Shown here: positions 8,062 to 18,100 of the stretch, piece by piece | Numbering within the stretch: position 1 is the stretch's first letter | Layout of the letters: each line of letters opens with the position of its first letter | DNA from: Candidatus Poseidoniaceae archaeon | GTDB lineage: Archaea > Thermoplasmatota > Poseidoniia > Poseidoniales > Poseidoniaceae | Direction of reading: 5' to 3' | Assembly (NCBI GenBank): GCA_024958795.1 | Contig: JANXHP010000056.1 | Coordinates: 1-34,471, forward strand | Length of the DNA stretch: 34,471 bases | Program-made: the position numbers and the translations under genes | The notes under the pieces: generated by a model | Seen by the model: only the letters and a program-made list of their open reading frames with translations | Databases searched by the model: none | What the model was told of the DNA's origin: nothing

Positions 8062-8131
8062 CAGTTTTTGTGATAATCATATGACGGCCACCTTCATAAC
8101 CCGAACCAATGTCCGATAGGCGTTGGTGCTT

Positions 8132-11100
8132 ATGCGTCGTGTCTCAAATGTTGCCCTTGTTGCTTTATTACTGTTACAAACTATGGCTTTAGGATTATCT
8201 TTTCCAGTCACTGCAGGTGGTCAGAATGATGATTTCAGAGTCTCTGGAATATCTATCGGAAATGGTAGTGTGATGCCCGATACATGGGTTCAGTCCGATG
8301 GTTCTACTATCGATTATATCTTTGAACTAGCGCCAATTGAAATCTCAATGTCTATTGTACGTGGAGGAAGTTCACTAAGTGCAAAGGCAACGAATGCAAC
8401 TTTGGAAGTCGTCCATCCAATAGGTTTCGTGATGGAAACATATAGTTGGAATAGCGGTGATTTGATCGGTGGCCAAGGTGCATCCGTATCTTATGTGTGG
8501 ACTCCAACCGCAGCACATTCAATCCTTAACACAACAACAAATGATCTCAGTGGAGGATTAATCCTTAGAGCAACTGTAAGTTTCCCAGGAGATGACAGAA
8601 ATGATAATGACGAAATGGAAAAAGCAGTTCCAGTTGCAATCGCAGAAGACATCTTTGATGGTTGGGCTGGCGCTGGAAAGTTATCTTTCCTATCAGCGCG
8701 TTACCCTGTAAATGGTGGAGATGCTACTGCAGCGGGTTCATGGCAAGATGATACTGGTGCAGCAATTGGTTCAAAGCATTGGAGGCATTCAGCACCAGGA
8801 GGTTCTGATTATCCATCAAGTGCAAATGACCGCTTAGTAAACATGTATCAAGTCAGTGATGGACAATGTGGCGTCGATGGTCAAATTGATGCAGGAATGT
8901 CTCAAACTTACCAAATGTGGGTTTGCCGCAAGCAATTTTTCTCAAGTAATTATGTCTCATCACAATTCCATATTCAAGCATGGGGAAGTATGGCAGCAGG
9001 AGATAGTGTTTCAATTGAATTATGGCGCAGTTCCGGAAATATCAGTAACCCAATGGAGTCTGTACGCTGGGATATCGCAAATGGTAACCCAAGTCCAGCA
9101 CCAGGTCAGTGGTCTAACTTATCATGGGACCCACAAGCAACGTGGTCACAGATTCCAGGTTTGAATAACCCTGACTTATTCCTTGGTGGCAACTCATTCT
9201 TCTTGGGAATGCTTTTCAATTCGGACTCAAGTAGTGCAAGTGAAGGATTCCACATTGATGATTGGATTCAATTTGGTATCACCAAAGTTTCTGATTATAC
9301 ATTAGAAATGGATTGTGATAATCCAGCAGGAGGATATTCAGGTCCACCTTTGGGTCTTCTTCAACTGAAGTGTGATATTACCAATAATGGATATACTTCT
9401 GCACTAGTAAGAGTTGAAACAAATGTAACAAATACATCATGGATGAATCCTCAGATGCCAGCGATTAGAATTGAAGTCGCTGACTCTAACGACCACGATT
9501 TAGATGTGCTTATGCCTGCGATTCCAGCAGGAGCAACTCGTGAAGTTTATGTTAATTTGAGTATTCCTGCAGGTGCAGATGTACAACAACAGATTTGGCA
9601 GGTATGGTTTACAGATGCTAGCGGTGCTTCCACAGGTGAGAAAGGAAGATTGATGATGGATGTTGCAGTTTCTGAACAATTTGGAGTCTCACTCACATCC
9701 TCTGTACCTCTTAATGCAGCTACTCTCAGTCCAGGTGAATCTGGAACTATTCCATTTAGACTACAAAATTCAGGCAATAAGGATGCAGCATTTAATCTCG
9801 CTGCAACTTTTTCTGAAGATGGATGGACTGCAATTGTTGAAAATGAAACCGGTGTAATTCAACCTACTCCAATCACTCTCAATAGAGGTGAGCAAGATGA
9901 TTTCATGCTCAATATTACTGCACCAAGTGATTCGACGCCAGGTGTTGTTTCTTTCAATTTGAGAGCAACTTGCGGACCATGTGGGGCATTGTTTGGAAAT
10001 GATGTACTTGTGCGTAATATTAATGTTCCAGTATTCCGTCAAGTCTCGCTAGAATCAGATGTTATCAGTATTGAAGGAGCAGCAAATGGTGTAATGAAGA
10101 AGGTTTACATTACAATTCTAAATCAAGGAAATGATGATGAAATATACAATTATTCTATTGTTCAATCTAACTGGTTACTGCATGCAGAAATAACCGCTGC
10201 TCAAAGTCCAGTCATGGACGCATGGGATGGAGAATCAACCATTATCCTCAATCTACCTATGCCGATTGGAGTTGTGCCAGGTCTATACAGTGTCAGAGTT
10301 ATCGCTACCAATTCGATTGACGATTCAATCAGTGAACAAATAATAATCACAGTTGAAATTCTTGACACAGCAGCAGTGTGGGTTTCTGATGAAGATGCTG
10401 AACAATCCTATATTCCAGGTGATCCGGCTCAAACGATGGAATTTGAAGTTAGAAACGATGGAAACAATCCAGACCGCTTCACAATGTCATTGGATGTACC
10501 TGATGGAATGAATGCTGAATTCACCAATCTGATTGATGGAAGAACGCCAGAAATAGAGACAGGTGCTAGTTTCAATGCATCGGTTAGATTTTCATTCAAT
10601 GAAGGAACAGATGGAGAGAGAACACTCGGTGTAATTGCAACCAGTTATGCTGATACAGATGTCTCAGCAAGAGGAGAGGCAGTATACTCAGTAGGTTCAC
10701 TTGGATGGTTGAGAATTGTTTACAATCAACCACCATTACAAATAATGGATTCGGAAGAAGATTATACAATTACAGTATCGGTTAGAAACCAGTACACCTC
10801 AGCACAATCAGTTGCTATGGAATTAGATAATGGAGCGTCCAGTTCTTGGTTCCAAGCAAGAATAGAATCTACTGATAGAGGATTTATTTTGCAAGAAGGT
10901 GAAGAGCGCTCTGTTACCATCATCTTTGAGATTTCAGAGACTACACTGCTAAACCTTGATTCAGATACTCTTTCAACAAATCTCACTTTGTGGGCACGTT
11001 CAGAGACTGTTAGTGATGCAGCCAATTATAAATTACAAGTTGTAATGACGAAAACGGATTCAATTACTGATGGTTCAGTAGATGCACAGGGTTCCTCTTT

Positions 11101-11506
11101 CGAATTCCAGAATATTTTGACTTGGATTATTTTCATTGTCATCATGGGTGTTGGAGGAGTATTCCTCAAGAATTTGATTTTCGTTGAAGAAGAAGAAGAC
11201 GACTATGGCGGCTGGGGAGAAGAAGGCTATGAAGAGAGTTTACAATCTACATACGGTTCTGTAACTGCGGCTCCAACTGTCAATTCTCAAGGCGTATTCA
11301 CTGCACCAGAGCCCGCAAAGATGGTGCCTCCGGTATCAATGCCACCTGCAGCAGCACCTCCAGCGGCTGAAGTACCAGTTGCTCCGGCTCCGGCCCCAGT
11401 TGTTGAAGCACCACCTGTACCTGCAGAAGGTCTTCCAGAAGGCTGGTCTATGGAACAATGGAATGCATATGGTCAAATGTGGTTAGAGCAAAATGGCCGA
11501 GTTTGA
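8132..11506 (+). CDS. Large secreted/cell-surface protein (about 1124 aa), NPCBM-associated/CARDB-like Ig-type repeats, C-terminal TM and Pro/Ala-rich cytoplasmic tail
   Basis: Signal peptide; repeated PGxxxxxxxxxxNxGNxxD-type units; TM ILTWIIFIVIMGVGGVFLKNLIF; tail ends AEGLPEGWSMEQWNAYGQMWLEQNGRV. Confidence 0.75.
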   Translation: MRRVSNVALVALLLLQTMALGLSFPVTAGGQNDDFRVSGISIGNGSVMPDTWVQSDGSTIDYIFELAPIEISMSIVRGGSSLSAKATNATLEVVHPIGFVMETYSWNSGDLIGGQGASVSYVWTPTAAHSILNTTTNDLSGGLILRATVSFPGDDRNDNDEMEKAVPVAIAEDIFDGWAGAGKLSFLSARYPVNGGDATAAGSWQDDTGAAIGSKHWRHSAPGGSDYPSSANDRLVNMYQVSDGQCGVDGQIDAGMSQTYQMWVCRKQFFSSNYVSSQFHIQAWGSMAAGDSVSIELWRSSGNISNPMESVRWDIANGNPSPAPGQWSNLSWDPQATWSQIPGLNNPDLFLGGNSFFLGMLFNSDSSSASEGFHIDDWIQFGITKVSDYTLEMDCDNPAGGYSGPPLGLLQLKCDITNNGYTSALVRVETNVTNTSWMNPQMPAIRIEVADSNDHDLDVLMPAIPAGATREVYVNLSIPAGADVQQQIWQVWFTDASGASTGEKGRLMMDVAVSEQFGVSLTSSVPLNAATLSPGESGTIPFRLQNSGNKDAAFNLAATFSEDGWTAIVENETGVIQPTPITLNRGEQDDFMLNITAPSDSTPGVVSFNLRATCGPCGALFGNDVLVRNINVPVFRQVSLESDVISIEGAANGVMKKVYITILNQGNDDEIYNYSIVQSNWLLHAEITAAQSPVMDAWDGESTIILNLPMPIGVVPGLYSVRVIATNSIDDSISEQIIITVEILDTAAVWVSDEDAEQSYIPGDPAQTMEFEVRNDGNNPDRFTMSLDVPDGMNAEFTNLIDGRTPEIETGASFNASVRFSFNEGTDGERTLGVIATSYADTDVSARGEAVYSVGSLGWLRIVYNQPPLQIMDSEEDYTITVSVRNQYTSAQSVAMELDNGASSSWFQARIESTDRGFILQEGEERSVTIIFEISETTLLNLDSDTLSTNLTLWARSETVSDAANYKLQVVMTKTDSITDGSVDAQGSSFEFQNILTWIIFIVIMGVGGVFLKNLIFVEEEEDDYGGWGEEGYEESLQSTYGSVTAAPTVNSQGVFTAPEPAKMVPPVSMPPAAAPPAAEVPVAPAPAPVVEAPPVPAEGLPEGWSMEQWNAYGQMWLEQNGRV

Positions 11507-13361: not shown

Positions 13362-15326
13362 ATGTCCGTTATCGCAAAGGTTTGGATTGAAGAGGATTGT
13401 ATCACCTGTGATGCGTGTGAAGACATATGTCCTGAAGTATTCCAATTAACTGATGAAACTTCTCAAATTGTTGCCGCAGTACGCGTAGATGGACAATTTG
13501 ACCGCAATACTGGAGGCGCTCTTCTAAAGGCAAACTTTGGTGCTGAATTCGCAGAATATATTGAGGAGGCTGCAGAAGCATGTCCAGTTGATATTATCAA
13601 ATTCGAAGTTGCTGGAGGTGCAGCACCTGCTGCTGAAGAAGCAGCAGCACCAATTGTAGAAGCAGCACCGGTTGCAGCAGCACCAGTTGAAGCTTCAGCA
13701 GGAACAAGTGAAGCATTAGCAGCAGTATTTTCCGGTGATAGAGCACTAACTATTCTGTTCGGTTCACAAACAGGTAATGCTGCAGGTCTTGCAGAAAAGA
13801 CTGCAAAGATGGCTGCCAATTATGAGTTGACTGCGAGCGTAGTTGACATGGATGGATATGATCCAGCAAGTTTAGTAGGTTCCAAGAGAGTACTGATTAT
13901 TACCTCAACTTGGGGTGAAGGTGATATGCCAGATAATGCAGAAGATTTCTGGCAAAATGTAAACAAATCATCACCTGCATTAGCAGGAGTAAATTATTCA
14001 GTTTGTGCAATTGGGGATACTTCATATGATGAGTATTGTAAAGCAGGAATTGATTGGGATAACAAATTTTCAGCATTAGGTGCAACCTCGGTTCAAGAAA
14101 TCCAACTTTGTGATGTTGACTTTGACGAGCCTTGGACTGTATGGGTTAATTCGGTATTACCTCGTATTGCTTGTGTTGATGGTTCAGGGCAATTCCAAGA
14201 ATCACTGGTTGAGGAAATGAGTGCATATGGTGCTGGAGGAGATGAGGAAGTATCTTCAGGTGATTTCACTCCAGGAACTGTGTTAATGGATGAGATTTCA
14301 GTAACGATTGAACTGTTCAGATACTGCCCAAGTGCAGCAGAATCAGGTTGGGATACAATTTCATGTGCAGTTCCTGCTCATGCAACGGTTGAAGATTTGC
14401 TTATTGCAATCCAGCAAGATGTTGATGGAAGTTTAGCATTCCGAAGAGGAACTAATGGCGGAACACCTACCACTGGAATTCGAGTAAATGGAAGAATAGT
14501 TCTTGCAGATATTGCCCGAATATCAGATGTCATTGGTTCAAATGCTAATCTAAAGATTGAGCCAGCACCTGGATTACCTATTATCCGCGATTTAATTGTT
14601 GATTTATCTGGATTTGAGGCTGCAAGAGCAAGAGCTGAGCCATGGATGAGGGCAGATCCAAGAGAAGGCGCTCGCTTGTTGAATGATGCAGCAGTTGGTA
14701 CAATGGATGCAGCAATCGCTACACAATTACATCAAAAGAGTGATATTTTGTCCTATCAATTAGTTCAATCAATGTCCGATACATCAGGTTATGACAAGGC
14801 TTACGAAGGACCTGGCGTTCATTTGCAGCAGTGGTTACGCGCTGAAGACCCAAGATGTGGAGAGGAACAAAGAAACAACATTCTCTCTTCACTGAATGAA
14901 ACTGATGGTATCTGGGCAGAGGCAGATTTGTCTTCTATTGCTCGTTATGGTTCTGATGGAAAACTTGCAGCACGTGGATTGAATGAAGCAAGAGCCCATC
15001 TACTCAATACAAGTAACTACAGTGGTAAGCACGGTCGCTTAGTAAAGTGGTATGGACGCAGTGTTAAGTGGACAGGAAATGTCAATGAAACTACACTATA
15101 TCGTCAAGTTCTCGGACCACTTGGTTTGGTTAGCAATATCTTCAATGGTGTTTCTGCCCGTATGGTATTAGGATTCACTCGTAATGGTGGACCGCCAATT
15201 CGGGGACTACAAGGATTATTGATGCCTCCAGCAGGTGTTGGTAAGATTCCAAATATGATTAATTCAAAGGTTGATGCTCATCATGAGGTAGTCAGCCTAT
15301 TCAATGAAATCGACAAGAGGTTCTAA
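13362..15326 (+). CDS. Multidomain fusion: [4Fe-4S] ferredoxin + flavodoxin-like + SdhB/FrdB-like region lacking cluster cysteines
   Basis: Ferredoxin CITCDACEDICPEVF...EACPVDII; Ala/Pro linker; flavodoxin LTILFGSQTGNAAGLAEKTA and ITSTWGEGDMPDNAEDFW; then VTIELFRY...DGSLAFRRGTNGGTPTTGIRVNGRIVLADIARI...IEPAPGLPIIRDLIVDLSGF...GPGVHLQQWLRAEDPR, an SdhB-like backbone. Confidence 0.8.
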   Translation: MSVIAKVWIEEDCITCDACEDICPEVFQLTDETSQIVAAVRVDGQFDRNTGGALLKANFGAEFAEYIEEAAEACPVDIIKFEVAGGAAPAAEEAAAPIVEAAPVAAAPVEASAGTSEALAAVFSGDRALTILFGSQTGNAAGLAEKTAKMAANYELTASVVDMDGYDPASLVGSKRVLIITSTWGEGDMPDNAEDFWQNVNKSSPALAGVNYSVCAIGDTSYDEYCKAGIDWDNKFSALGATSVQEIQLCDVDFDEPWTVWVNSVLPRIACVDGSGQFQESLVEEMSAYGAGGDEEVSSGDFTPGTVLMDEISVTIELFRYCPSAAESGWDTISCAVPAHATVEDLLIAIQQDVDGSLAFRRGTNGGTPTTGIRVNGRIVLADIARISDVIGSNANLKIEPAPGLPIIRDLIVDLSGFEAARARAEPWMRADPREGARLLNDAAVGTMDAAIATQLHQKSDILSYQLVQSMSDTSGYDKAYEGPGVHLQQWLRAEDPRCGEEQRNNILSSLNETDGIWAEADLSSIARYGSDGKLAARGLNEARAHLLNTSNYSGKHGRLVKWYGRSVKWTGNVNETTLYRQVLGPLGLVSNIFNGVSARMVLGFTRNGGPPIRGLQGLLMPPAGVGKIPNMINSKVDAHHEVVSLFNEIDKRF

Positions 15327-15336
15327 GGTGATTAGT

Positions 15337-16194
15337 ATGGCAAAGGTCGCATATTATCCAGGCAATACAGCAAGGGCTGCTTCAATGGAAGTTGAGGATT
15401 GTATCGTTCCATTGTGTAAAACACTTGGAATTGAGTTAGTTGAAATTCCAAAAGCATCGAGTGATGGTGGAAATGTCATTAGTCAAGCTTCAGCGAAATT
15501 ACAGCATTCATTAGTTGCTCGTAATCTTGCACTTGCTGAGCAAAAGGGCATTGATATAATGACAACCTGTGCAACATCACACGCAATCATGTGTGATACT
15601 GCAGATACACTTGCTTCTAATTCAATATATACTTCACAATTGAACAATCTAATTTATCGTACATCTGGAATTGAATATACTGGAGAGTCAAGATCTCGCC
15701 ATCTTCTTCATTACTTAGTAGAAGAGATTGGTTTGGATAAGATTAGAGATGTGGTGATTAATCCGATTAAACTCAATGTTGCTGGATATTATGGTTCTAA
15801 TATGCAAAGAGAAGGCGCTTGTGGGGATGATGATGCATTCCTTCCAAGTTATTTGGAACAGTTGATTACAGCATTGGGTGGAGTGCCGATTGATTTTGAA
15901 CTAAAATGCCAAAGTGTTGGTGCGCCTTCATTACTAACTCTTGAGGGAACTGCAATGGCAATGACTGCAGCAGTTCTTTCTGATGCAAAACAGAATGGTG
16001 CTGATATTATGGTTAGCGCTTGTACAATTTCTCATTCAAATCTTGATTCTTATCAATCAAGGGCTGGTAAACTAACTGGAAAAGATACTGCAATGCCCGT
16101 AGTCCATCTTGCAGAATTAGTAGCATTTGCTTTAGGACACTATCCAGATAGATTTGCACAATTAAAAACACGTGCAATAGTTATTGGAAGTTGA
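15337..16194 (+). CDS. HdrB / SdhE-type CCG-domain protein, degenerate in cluster ligands
   Basis: VAYYPGNTARAA, CKTLGIELVEIPKASSDGGN, LVARNLALAEQKGIDIMTTCATSH, VAGYYGSN, VSACTISHSNLD align with the HdrB fold signatures YYPGC, NCCG, CxxC, YYGC and CPxCxxNLD. Confidence 0.78.
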   Translation: MAKVAYYPGNTARAASMEVEDCIVPLCKTLGIELVEIPKASSDGGNVISQASAKLQHSLVARNLALAEQKGIDIMTTCATSHAIMCDTADTLASNSIYTSQLNNLIYRTSGIEYTGESRSRHLLHYLVEEIGLDKIRDVVINPIKLNVAGYYGSNMQREGACGDDDAFLPSYLEQLITALGGVPIDFELKCQSVGAPSLLTLEGTAMAMTAAVLSDAKQNGADIMVSACTISHSNLDSYQSRAGKLTGKDTAMPVVHLAELVAFALGHYPDRFAQLKTRAIVIGS

Positions 16195-16213: not shown

Positions 16214-18100
16214 TCAATCATCAGCATCTTGCTGTTTTGTACCATCTAAGACAACATTCCATCTAGATTTCAATTGTTTTTCTTCACCAATAACCTCATC
16301 TTTTACAGGCTCATTTTGATCCTTAGTAATGAATGATTCTAAACCCATCTGATTACTCGGTCTTCGCATTGCTGGGCTGATGATTGGAATGCTACTGCCA
16401 TCGTTTTTTGCATCCTTATCCTTCTTTTTCTCAACCTCGGGCTTCACCTTTTCTATCACTGGGAATAATTTCCCAAGTCGCTTTTCTTCAGTGGTTAAGA
16501 ACTCAACTGCAGATACAATCACTCCTTCACTATCAACAACAGAAAAGTCAGATAGTACTTCCGTTGGAGGAATATCGAATATCAATCGGCCTCCACCTTT
16601 TATTTCATCTAGAAGAACATACATTTTCTCTTCTCTACGTTTTGAGGCCATATAGACGAATACATCTCTGGTATCACTTGTGATTAGAATATGTACTGCA
16701 CCATCTCTTTGCCTTGCAGTTCTACCTCTACGTTGAATAGTACGGATAGCGCTTGGAACCGGCTCATATAAGATTACCAAATCTGCTGCAGGAACATCTA
16801 ATCCTTCTTCTCCAACAGAAGTAGCAACTAGAACATTGATATCGCCTTCACGGAATCGTTGTAATTGTGCTAATTGTTGTTTTTGATTCATTCCTTTTCT
16901 TTTTCCAGTTCCAGATTGACCAATAAATCTATCAGCAGCAACTCCTTCTATAGAATTGAGTTTCTCAGTAAGTAATTCAACAGTATCTCTATATTCAGTG
17001 AAAATTAAGACCTTACTTTCTGGAGAATCTCTCAACTGTTGAGATACTAGTCCTGCCGTATGTGATGGCTTTGGATGTAATTCATCCAACTGCTTTGAAA
17101 CATTTCTAAAATTGTGAATACATGGTAATGCAATGAAACTATTCGTTCCCCTTTGCCCACTACGGCCATCCTCTTCAGCTCTATCAACAAAAGCCTGAGC
17201 AGACTTCAACCCCTGAGTTCTAAGCAGGTCTAGCAAGATGTGAATTCTGCGTAGATTTGAAATCTTTCTCGCAGCATTATAGCCCCGAGTATCTCTTCTT
17301 TGGATAGCAATACTCGCTCTACGCTGTGCATCTTCTATCAATTTAGAAGTCAAATGTCCAGTAGGGGCCAAGAATCCCATTTTTCTTAATTGTTCAGCCT
17401 CTAAGTTTTGATGCTCTTCTAAAGGCAAGATTATTCCTTTCAATTCATCATCTAGTTCAAGATAATGAGGTATAATTTTCATATTAACTTGATATGCTTG
17501 CAAGAGAGAACTTTCCTTCTTACTGATTGAGAAGGTTTTGACATCCAAATTATTAGCGACTTGTAATATTCCTGCCTTGGTTGAACCTGGGCTTGCAGTT
17601 GCGCCAATAATGAAACAATCTCGGTTGTCCTTTTTCATTAATATTCCAACTTGAGAATAAGCATGGTTTCCTGTTGCATGATGTGCTTCATCAAAGATTA
17701 GTAAACCCAAATCGGCCAAATCAATTAATCCATTTTGTACATCATTACGAATCACCTGTGGTGTTGCGATTATGATTCTACCCGATTTCCATAATTCAGG
17801 CCTTTTGGCTGGAGCGTTTTCACCAGTATAGGTGATAATTTGATCGCCATCAATATCGATCATCTCTCTTGCCATTCTCTGTTGTTGGTCAACCAAACCA
17901 GTCGTTGGTGCAATTAGTAGAACTTTACCTGAATTTTTTTGAAGACAATTTGCCATTGCCATCCATTCAACTGCAGTTTTTCCAAAACCGGTAGGCATCA
18001 CCATCAAAGTCGATGAAGATAAACAGTATATCAGGGCATTTAATTGGTATGCCCTCGCCTCAACACCCTCTTTCAAGAATGGATGTTGAACTGTTGCCAT
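16214..18100 (-). CDS. hef: Hef/FANCM-type SF2 DNA helicase, apparently without the XPF-like nuclease domain
   Basis: Walker A MPTGFGKTA, DEAHHATGNHAY, GATASPGSTK, FTEYRDTVELL, GEEGLDVPAADLVILYEPVPSAIRTIQRRGRTAR; C-terminus is short and lysine/acid-rich. Confidence 0.85.
   Translation of the reverse strand: MATVQHPFLKEGVEARAYQLNALIYCLSSSTLMVMPTGFGKTAVEWMAMANCLQKNSGKVLLIAPTTGLVDQQQRMAREMIDIDGDQIITYTGENAPAKRPELWKSGRIIIATPQVIRNDVQNGLIDLADLGLLIFDEAHHATGNHAYSQVGILMKKDNRDCFIIGATASPGSTKAGILQVANNLDVKTFSISKKESSLLQAYQVNMKIIPHYLELDDELKGIILPLEEHQNLEAEQLRKMGFLAPTGHLTSKLIEDAQRRASIAIQRRDTRGYNAARKISNLRRIHILLDLLRTQGLKSAQAFVDRAEEDGRSGQRGTNSFIALPCIHNFRNVSKQLDELHPKPSHTAGLVSQQLRDSPESKVLIFTEYRDTVELLTEKLNSIEGVAADRFIGQSGTGKRKGMNQKQQLAQLQRFREGDINVLVATSVGEEGLDVPAADLVILYEPVPSAIRTIQRRGRTARQRDGAVHILITSDTRDVFVYMASKRREEKMYVLLDEIKGGGRLIFDIPPTEVLSDFSVVDSEGVIVSAVEFLTTEEKRLGKLFPVIEKVKPEVEKKKDKDAKNDGSSIPIISPAMRRPSNQMGLESFITKDQNEPVKDEVIGEEKQLKSRWNVVLDGTKQQDADD

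Follow-up and report, generated by a model that had tools for sequence, protein, structure and literature searches.

A conserved, cluster-ligand-poor SdhB-SdhE-like protein pair in the Poseidoniales, a candidate iron-poor electron hub derived from an SdhABE-type complex II

Two adjacent genes of the marine archaeal order Poseidoniales encode proteins, here called P1 and P2, that look, from their sequences, like a relic: the SdhE and SdhB, respectively, of an SdhABE-type complex II, left after the loss of SdhA. The pair has shed most or all of its inherited iron-sulfur cluster ligands, is under strong purifying selection, and carries exchangeable ferredoxin and flavodoxin domains. We judge the chances about even that it operates as an SdhABE-derived, iron-poor electron hub together with a CysJ-type NADPH-FAD reductase. 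Poseidoniales are uncultured and are among the most abundant marine archaea. Little is known of how they handle reducing power, and a pair that is present in every high-quality genome, has no functional annotation and has a testable candidate partner in the CysJ-type reductase opens that question. The analysis started from one contig of a Candidatus Poseidoniaceae archaeon (JANXHP010000056.1, assembly GCA_024958795.1), the whole 34,471-nucleotide length of which is referred to as the window; its relevant features are collected in Table 1.

Table 1. Features of the P1-P2 region, in window coordinates
Feature	Position	Strand	Basis
P2, fusion of ferredoxin, flavodoxin and ligand-free SdhB-like part, 654 aa	13362..15326	+	Pfam/NCBIfam; 0/12 SdhB ligand Cys
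P2 domain A, [4Fe-4S] ferredoxin, four Cys ligands	13389..13601	+	Fer4_13 4e-9
P2 domain B, CysJ-like flavodoxin (FMN)	13752..14123	+	Flavodoxin_1 6.4e-30; TIGR01931 cysJ 2.2e-36
P2 SdhB-like N-domain, plant-ferredoxin fold, without [2Fe-2S] ligands	14307..14615	+	Fer2_3 4.9e-11; ligand columns
P2 SdhB-like helical C-domain, without [4Fe-4S]/[3Fe-4S] ligands	14649..14981	+	dhsB match, residues 330-518
P2 C-terminal extension	14982..15323	+	alignment; common to SdhB of SdhABE-type operons
P1, HdrB/SdhE-like, with 2/10 CCG-cluster Cys	15337..16194	+	profile, PDB, fold and alignment matches
P1 Cys78 codon	15568..15570	+	invariant, 152/152 readable sequences
P1 Cys229 codon	16021..16023	+	invariant, 153/153 sequences
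Hef-like helicase	16214..18100	-	Hef model positions 3-505 of 781 only
1127-aa open reading frame	8123..11506	+	weak Ig-like domain matches

P1 had been predicted to be an HdrB/SdhE-like protein with degenerate cluster motifs, and its reading frame, coordinates and motifs were all re-found, with the exception of the ligand reading of one motif discussed below. Its ATG at 15337 had been placed about 10 nt past the stop of P2, and the measured distance is 10 nt; a second in-frame ATG occurs at 15304, and the start at 15337 is preferred because the alignment backs it. Homology to HdrB and SdhE spans the entire 285-residue protein. Profile searches matched TIGR03288 (6.5e-36) and NF042965 (1.1e-32), in both cases under the family cut-off, and a sequence search matched HdrB chains of the PDB (3.5e-31). 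An AlphaFold2 model of P1 alone, with 27 orthologues included in the input, reached a pLDDT of 89.3 and a pTM of 0.89, and aligned with the solved HdrB structures 8rvy_B and 5odc_B at a TM score of 0.86. The sequence matches are beyond chance, and together with the predicted structure they uphold the family assignment; the model indicates that P1 retains the overall HdrB/SdhE fold.

HdrB-type proteins use five cysteines in each half as cluster ligands. An outgroup alignment defined these five columns per half, and in the P1 of the window the N-terminal half reads C10>N, C42>S, C43>D, C78 kept and C81>S (NSDCS), while the C-terminal half reads C154>S, C193>S, C194>V, C229 kept and C232>S. Two of the ten non-cubane-cluster cysteines are thus left, each the first of a CxxC, and no cysteine other than these two is invariant in the order-wide alignment. 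The original prediction read KCQSVGA as standing in place of KCCGA. The C191 of this motif is no ligand position; in the alignment of RVMCCGFP with KCQSVGAP the two adjacent cysteines fall on S193-V194, so that the C-terminal CC is wholly gone. That neither CCG motif is intact in this protein was, on the other hand, read correctly. The five-cysteine C-terminal CCG motif is gone in 153/153 P1 sequences; all five N-terminal cysteines are present in 11/153. In HdrB, Cys81 and Cys234 are the two bridging cysteines that hold the catalytic iron (PMC13083937), and both equivalents are serine in the window. On these ligand counts the P1 of the window was rejected as a cluster-bearing heterodisulfide reductase or SdhE member.

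P2 had been described as depleted of cysteines. This is true of its SdhB-like part, where none of 12 ligand columns for the [2Fe-2S], [4Fe-4S] and [3Fe-4S] clusters is kept (the columns being the cysteines common to SdhB proteins of SdhABE-type operons), but not of its N-terminal ferredoxin domain, the four ligands of which are intact. The P2 proteins of two further loci (L042 and L066) likewise have 0/12 SdhB ligand cysteines, and the SdhB-part ligands are absent order-wide; the ferredoxin domain has all four ligands (CITCDAC...CP) in 27/27 loci that possess it. A weak model of the SdhB-like part (pLDDT 62.5) matched SdhB folds with E-values of about 1e-10 to 1e-7, the best being 4.5e-10, and TM scores of about 0.45, and the C-terminal extension is of low confidence or disordered when folded alone. 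Across genera domain A is interchangeable, being a [4Fe-4S] ferredoxin, a second flavodoxin, or missing. Ferredoxin and flavodoxin are known to replace each other under low iron (PMC7039249); here the two are swapped in place on one protein. One P2 (L057, genome G019) has the ferredoxin and no flavodoxin, and its genome has no Flavodoxin_1 match at all.

P1 was found in 184/195 genomes of the order, in 34/34 high-quality genomes and in all 21 genera. P2 adjoins it on the same strand in 79/80 named loci, the remaining locus being cut by a contig edge, and the gene order thermosome (TCP1)-P2-P1-Hef-like helicase (opposite strand)-uL3 occurs in both families. The proposal that the two genes form a conserved unit is therefore borne out by the adjacency and synteny kept in the loci compared. 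Median pairwise NG86 omega, taken over pairs with dS of 0.1-1.0, is 0.030 for P1 (75 pairs) and 0.046 for P2 (66 pairs), so that dN/dS across the order, at about 0.03-0.05, reflects strong purifying selection and is not near 1; P1 also has invariant residues outside the ligand positions. The pair was not found in any MGIII genome tested. One genome (G005) encodes P2 fused to P1 in one 997-aa reading frame (L053:4841-7831), with a P2 C-terminus about 35 residues shorter; unless it is an assembly error, this fusion supports a physical partnership. As for the flanking genes, the helicase of the window apparently lacks a nuclease domain, and in most of the loci that were compared the 1127-aa reading frame is conserved on the upstream side of the thermosome gene.

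The closest homologues found in other Thermoplasmatota are encoded in SdhA-SdhB-SdhE operons and have every cysteine present. The homology of P2 to the SdhB of these operons is full-length, C-terminal extension included. The normal SdhB of the Poseidoniales lacks that extension; it occurs in every Poseidoniales genome tested and lies beside SdhA in G002. No SdhA or other sdh gene was found in the conserved P1-P2 neighbourhood of the loci compared. The shared extension and the separate normal SdhB argue against the pair being a damaged duplicate of the resident succinate dehydrogenase (SDH). Furthermore, a conserved unit, strong purifying selection and ancestors that were partners in an SdhABE operon favour repurposing over random decay. 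The original prediction had arrived at a repurposed complex, and the omega values, adjacency and ancestry agree with it; its suggestion of a TfrB-like association with an SdhA partner finds no support, as the neighbourhood contains no SdhA and the one in the genome belongs to a separate SDH.

Parallel ligand loss in the two partners had also been proposed. The loss is real in both but was not simultaneous, because the N-terminal CCG is intact in six genera (g5, g6, g8, g10, g16 and g21): order-wide loss applies to the ligands of SdhB and to the CCG motif of the C-terminal half, and the N-terminal loss is limited to part of the order. Among the 46 order members of the first P1 tree, 10 keep all five N-terminal cysteines. 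Their motifs read YFPGC, ACCGAG or SCCGAG, and CATC or CASC, and two such proteins that were scanned gave clear CCG-domain matches (2.3e-19 and 2.1e-15); a cluster could still take part in these P1 proteins. In the lost type, position C10 is Asn in every case. In the P1 tree the intact copies of both families group together (one change, SH-aLRT 99), also when the ligand columns are removed, whereas the same states require four changes on a flanking-gene tree and three on a tree of the SdhB-like part, both of which follow the families; all three are quick trees. Since the P1 and flanking-gene trees disagree, it is likely either that P1 alone was exchanged while the locus around it stayed fixed, or that its ligand columns arose by convergence. 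Within genus g5, one locus (L041) has a lost-type P1 with a flavodoxin-flavodoxin P2 and its two sisters (L039 and L040) have an intact-N P1 with a ferredoxin-flavodoxin P2 at the same syntenic position, which suggests allele replacement. Of the readable loci, 9/9 with an intact P1 also have the ferredoxin domain, as compared with 18/32 for lost types (Fisher 0.017, a test that ignores relatedness).

A CysJ-type FAD-NADP(H) reductase (best model cysJ, 1.4e-118) is encoded in 24/24 Poseidoniales genomes tested, and mostly lacks an FMN-binding flavodoxin domain of its own. A P2 flavodoxin was found in 23 of these 24 genomes, and in 13 of them, including that of the window, where domain B is the sole match in the assembly, P2 is the only carrier of Flavodoxin_1. 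In several genomes of the second family (f2) the reductase does bear a flavodoxin, which belongs to the subfamily of P2 domain A in one supported clade; a stand-alone flavodoxin of that subfamily in G003 falls within the same clade. When 60 genomes were classed by ORF length, a proxy for domain content, and by flavodoxin count, a flavodoxin-bearing reductase occurred in 0/25 with a ferredoxin-flavodoxin P2, 9/26 with a flavodoxin-flavodoxin P2 and 7/9 with domain A missing (P2 with against without ferredoxin, Fisher 4.6e-5, which ignores relatedness). Such traffic of flavodoxins between two proteins is classic evidence, although not proof, of functional coupling, and the CysJ-type reductase is a likelier partner of P2 than is SdhA. 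The two genes are not neighbours. The reductase may have other partners, since two MGIII genomes have it without P2 and without a Flavodoxin_1 match, and since the P2 of G019 has no flavodoxin. Every genome tested from the Poseidoniales and from MGIII has it, at L194:28-1314 (-) and at equivalent places in L218-L233. Sulfite reductase was rejected as the acceptor, as no NIR_SIR hemoprotein domain occurs in any of 26 genomes.

We propose that the SdhE and SdhB of an SdhABE-type complex II lost SdhA in an ancestor of the Poseidoniales and became a platform for carrier domains. P2 would have acquired an FMN flavodoxin (domain B) and, as domain A, a second electron carrier, either another flavodoxin or a ferredoxin with a [4Fe-4S] cluster. 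The cluster wire of SdhB and the C-terminal SdhE cluster would have been lost, while both folds would persist and probably also the contact between SdhB and SdhE. The FMN of P2 would exchange electrons with the separate NADPH-FAD reductase, which would be the half that P2 lacks in comparison with a diflavin reductase; the source would be NADPH or, in reverse, reduced ferredoxin, and P1 with the SdhB-like part would dock the module to a membrane or an acceptor enzyme. The data establish where the pair comes from, that it is conserved, that its ligands are lost, that its carrier domains are swapped and that each Poseidoniales genome tested encodes the reductase; the formation of a P1-P2 complex, the flow and direction of electrons through it, its acceptor and the selective cause are the parts that we infer. 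The loss of cysteines, the strict conservation and the fusion to carrier domains make P1-P2 probably a repurposed, iron-sparing hub. Non-cubane clusters are oxygen-labile and flavodoxin is iron-free; cluster loss and the replacement of ferredoxin by flavodoxin would agree with a selective pressure in surface waters towards a low need for iron and tolerance of oxygen. A bolder version, possible but doubtful, is that iron was removed stepwise from a complex II module which yet remained essential, serving a split NADPH reductase as its FMN/ferredoxin half. The series would run from an SdhBE with clusters in both proteins, through ferredoxin plus N-terminal CCG and then ferredoxin only, to a flavodoxin-flavodoxin form with no iron ligands. 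P1-P2 offers natural intermediates of an iron-sulfur complex that loses its clusters and is itself kept and, if stepwise stripping is true, an electron hub redesigned for an iron-poor, oxic surface ocean.

Other readings of the pair must be weighed against such a hub. Loss of the cluster ligands is what decaying pseudogenes of an old complex II would display, but dN/dS of about 0.03-0.05, order-wide retention, fixed synteny and invariant non-ligand residues refute decay, which we regard as practically out of the question. A non-redox scaffold, in which the SdhB and SdhE parts are structural and the flavodoxin and ferredoxin serve an unrelated partner such as a radical SAM enzyme, would account for the order-wide loss of all SdhB ligands and for a conserved neighbourhood without an acceptor gene; the carrier domains nevertheless retain their cofactor motifs, and P2 shares a flavodoxin subfamily with the NADPH reductase, which leaves this reading rather unlikely.

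The pair might instead be an accessory or regulatory part of the resident SDH or of another SdhA-like flavoprotein, its carriers feeding or draining that enzyme. An SdhB fold predicted to be conserved without ligands, and a normal SdhB in all genomes of the order that were tested, are in keeping with this, yet the conserved neighbourhood has no sdh gene, P2 traces back to another type of SdhB, the resident one having no extension, and nothing ties the pair to SdhA; we find such a role improbable. Still more doubtful is that P1 continues to hold a non-standard Fe-S cluster and acts as an ordinary electron-transfer subunit in the manner of EtfD, which after loss of one ligand binds a linear [3Fe-4S] cluster (PMC13083937). 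A cluster is expected in the six genera with all five N-terminal cysteines. The P1 of the window, however, has one cysteine per half and no further invariant cysteine, whereas in EtfD the linear cluster still has four ligands and the non-cubane cluster five cysteines plus a histidine.

The HdrB/SdhE, SdhB, flavodoxin and CysJ families are already known; what appears new, within a limited search of the open-access literature in which no precedent was found, is a ligand-free SdhB-SdhE pair that spans a whole order and is fused to carrier domains which can be exchanged. Among known systems, SdhE/MfrE, the CCG anchor of SdhABE complex II and of 8-methylmenaquinol:fumarate reductase, resembles P1 in fold, length and SdhB-SdhE order, and the C-terminal extension of its SdhB partner is homologous to that of P2. 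P1 differs in lacking an adjacent SdhA and the C-terminal CCG, and in the window also the N-terminal CCG; it scores 113.8 against a family cut-off of 500, and other Thermoplasmatota members also fall below. HdrB is alike in sequence and fold, but P1 has few of its ligands, serines for its bridging cysteines, and no HdrA or HdrC nearby. TfrB, an SdhB-HdrB fusion, has the architecture of P2-P1 as fused in one Poseidoniales genome; unlike the pair, TfrB retains its clusters. An uncharacterised 514-aa Helicobacter pylori protein (PDB 3kwl), compared by fold only, matches P1 at a TM score of 0.75 and, weakly, the low-confidence model of the SdhB-like part of P2, and may be a bacterial parallel. As in CysJ and the diflavin reductases, the P2 flavodoxin and the FAD-NADP reductase both best match cysJ, but in most Poseidoniales genomes the FMN and FAD halves are on separate proteins, with no sulfite reductase hemoprotein. 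Finally, mycobacterial EtfD has altered CCG ligands in an aerobe, a proposed adaptation to oxic conditions (PMC13083937); EtfD shares an altered-ligand CCG domain with P1 but keeps clusters and a membrane part, whereas P1 has almost no ligands left.
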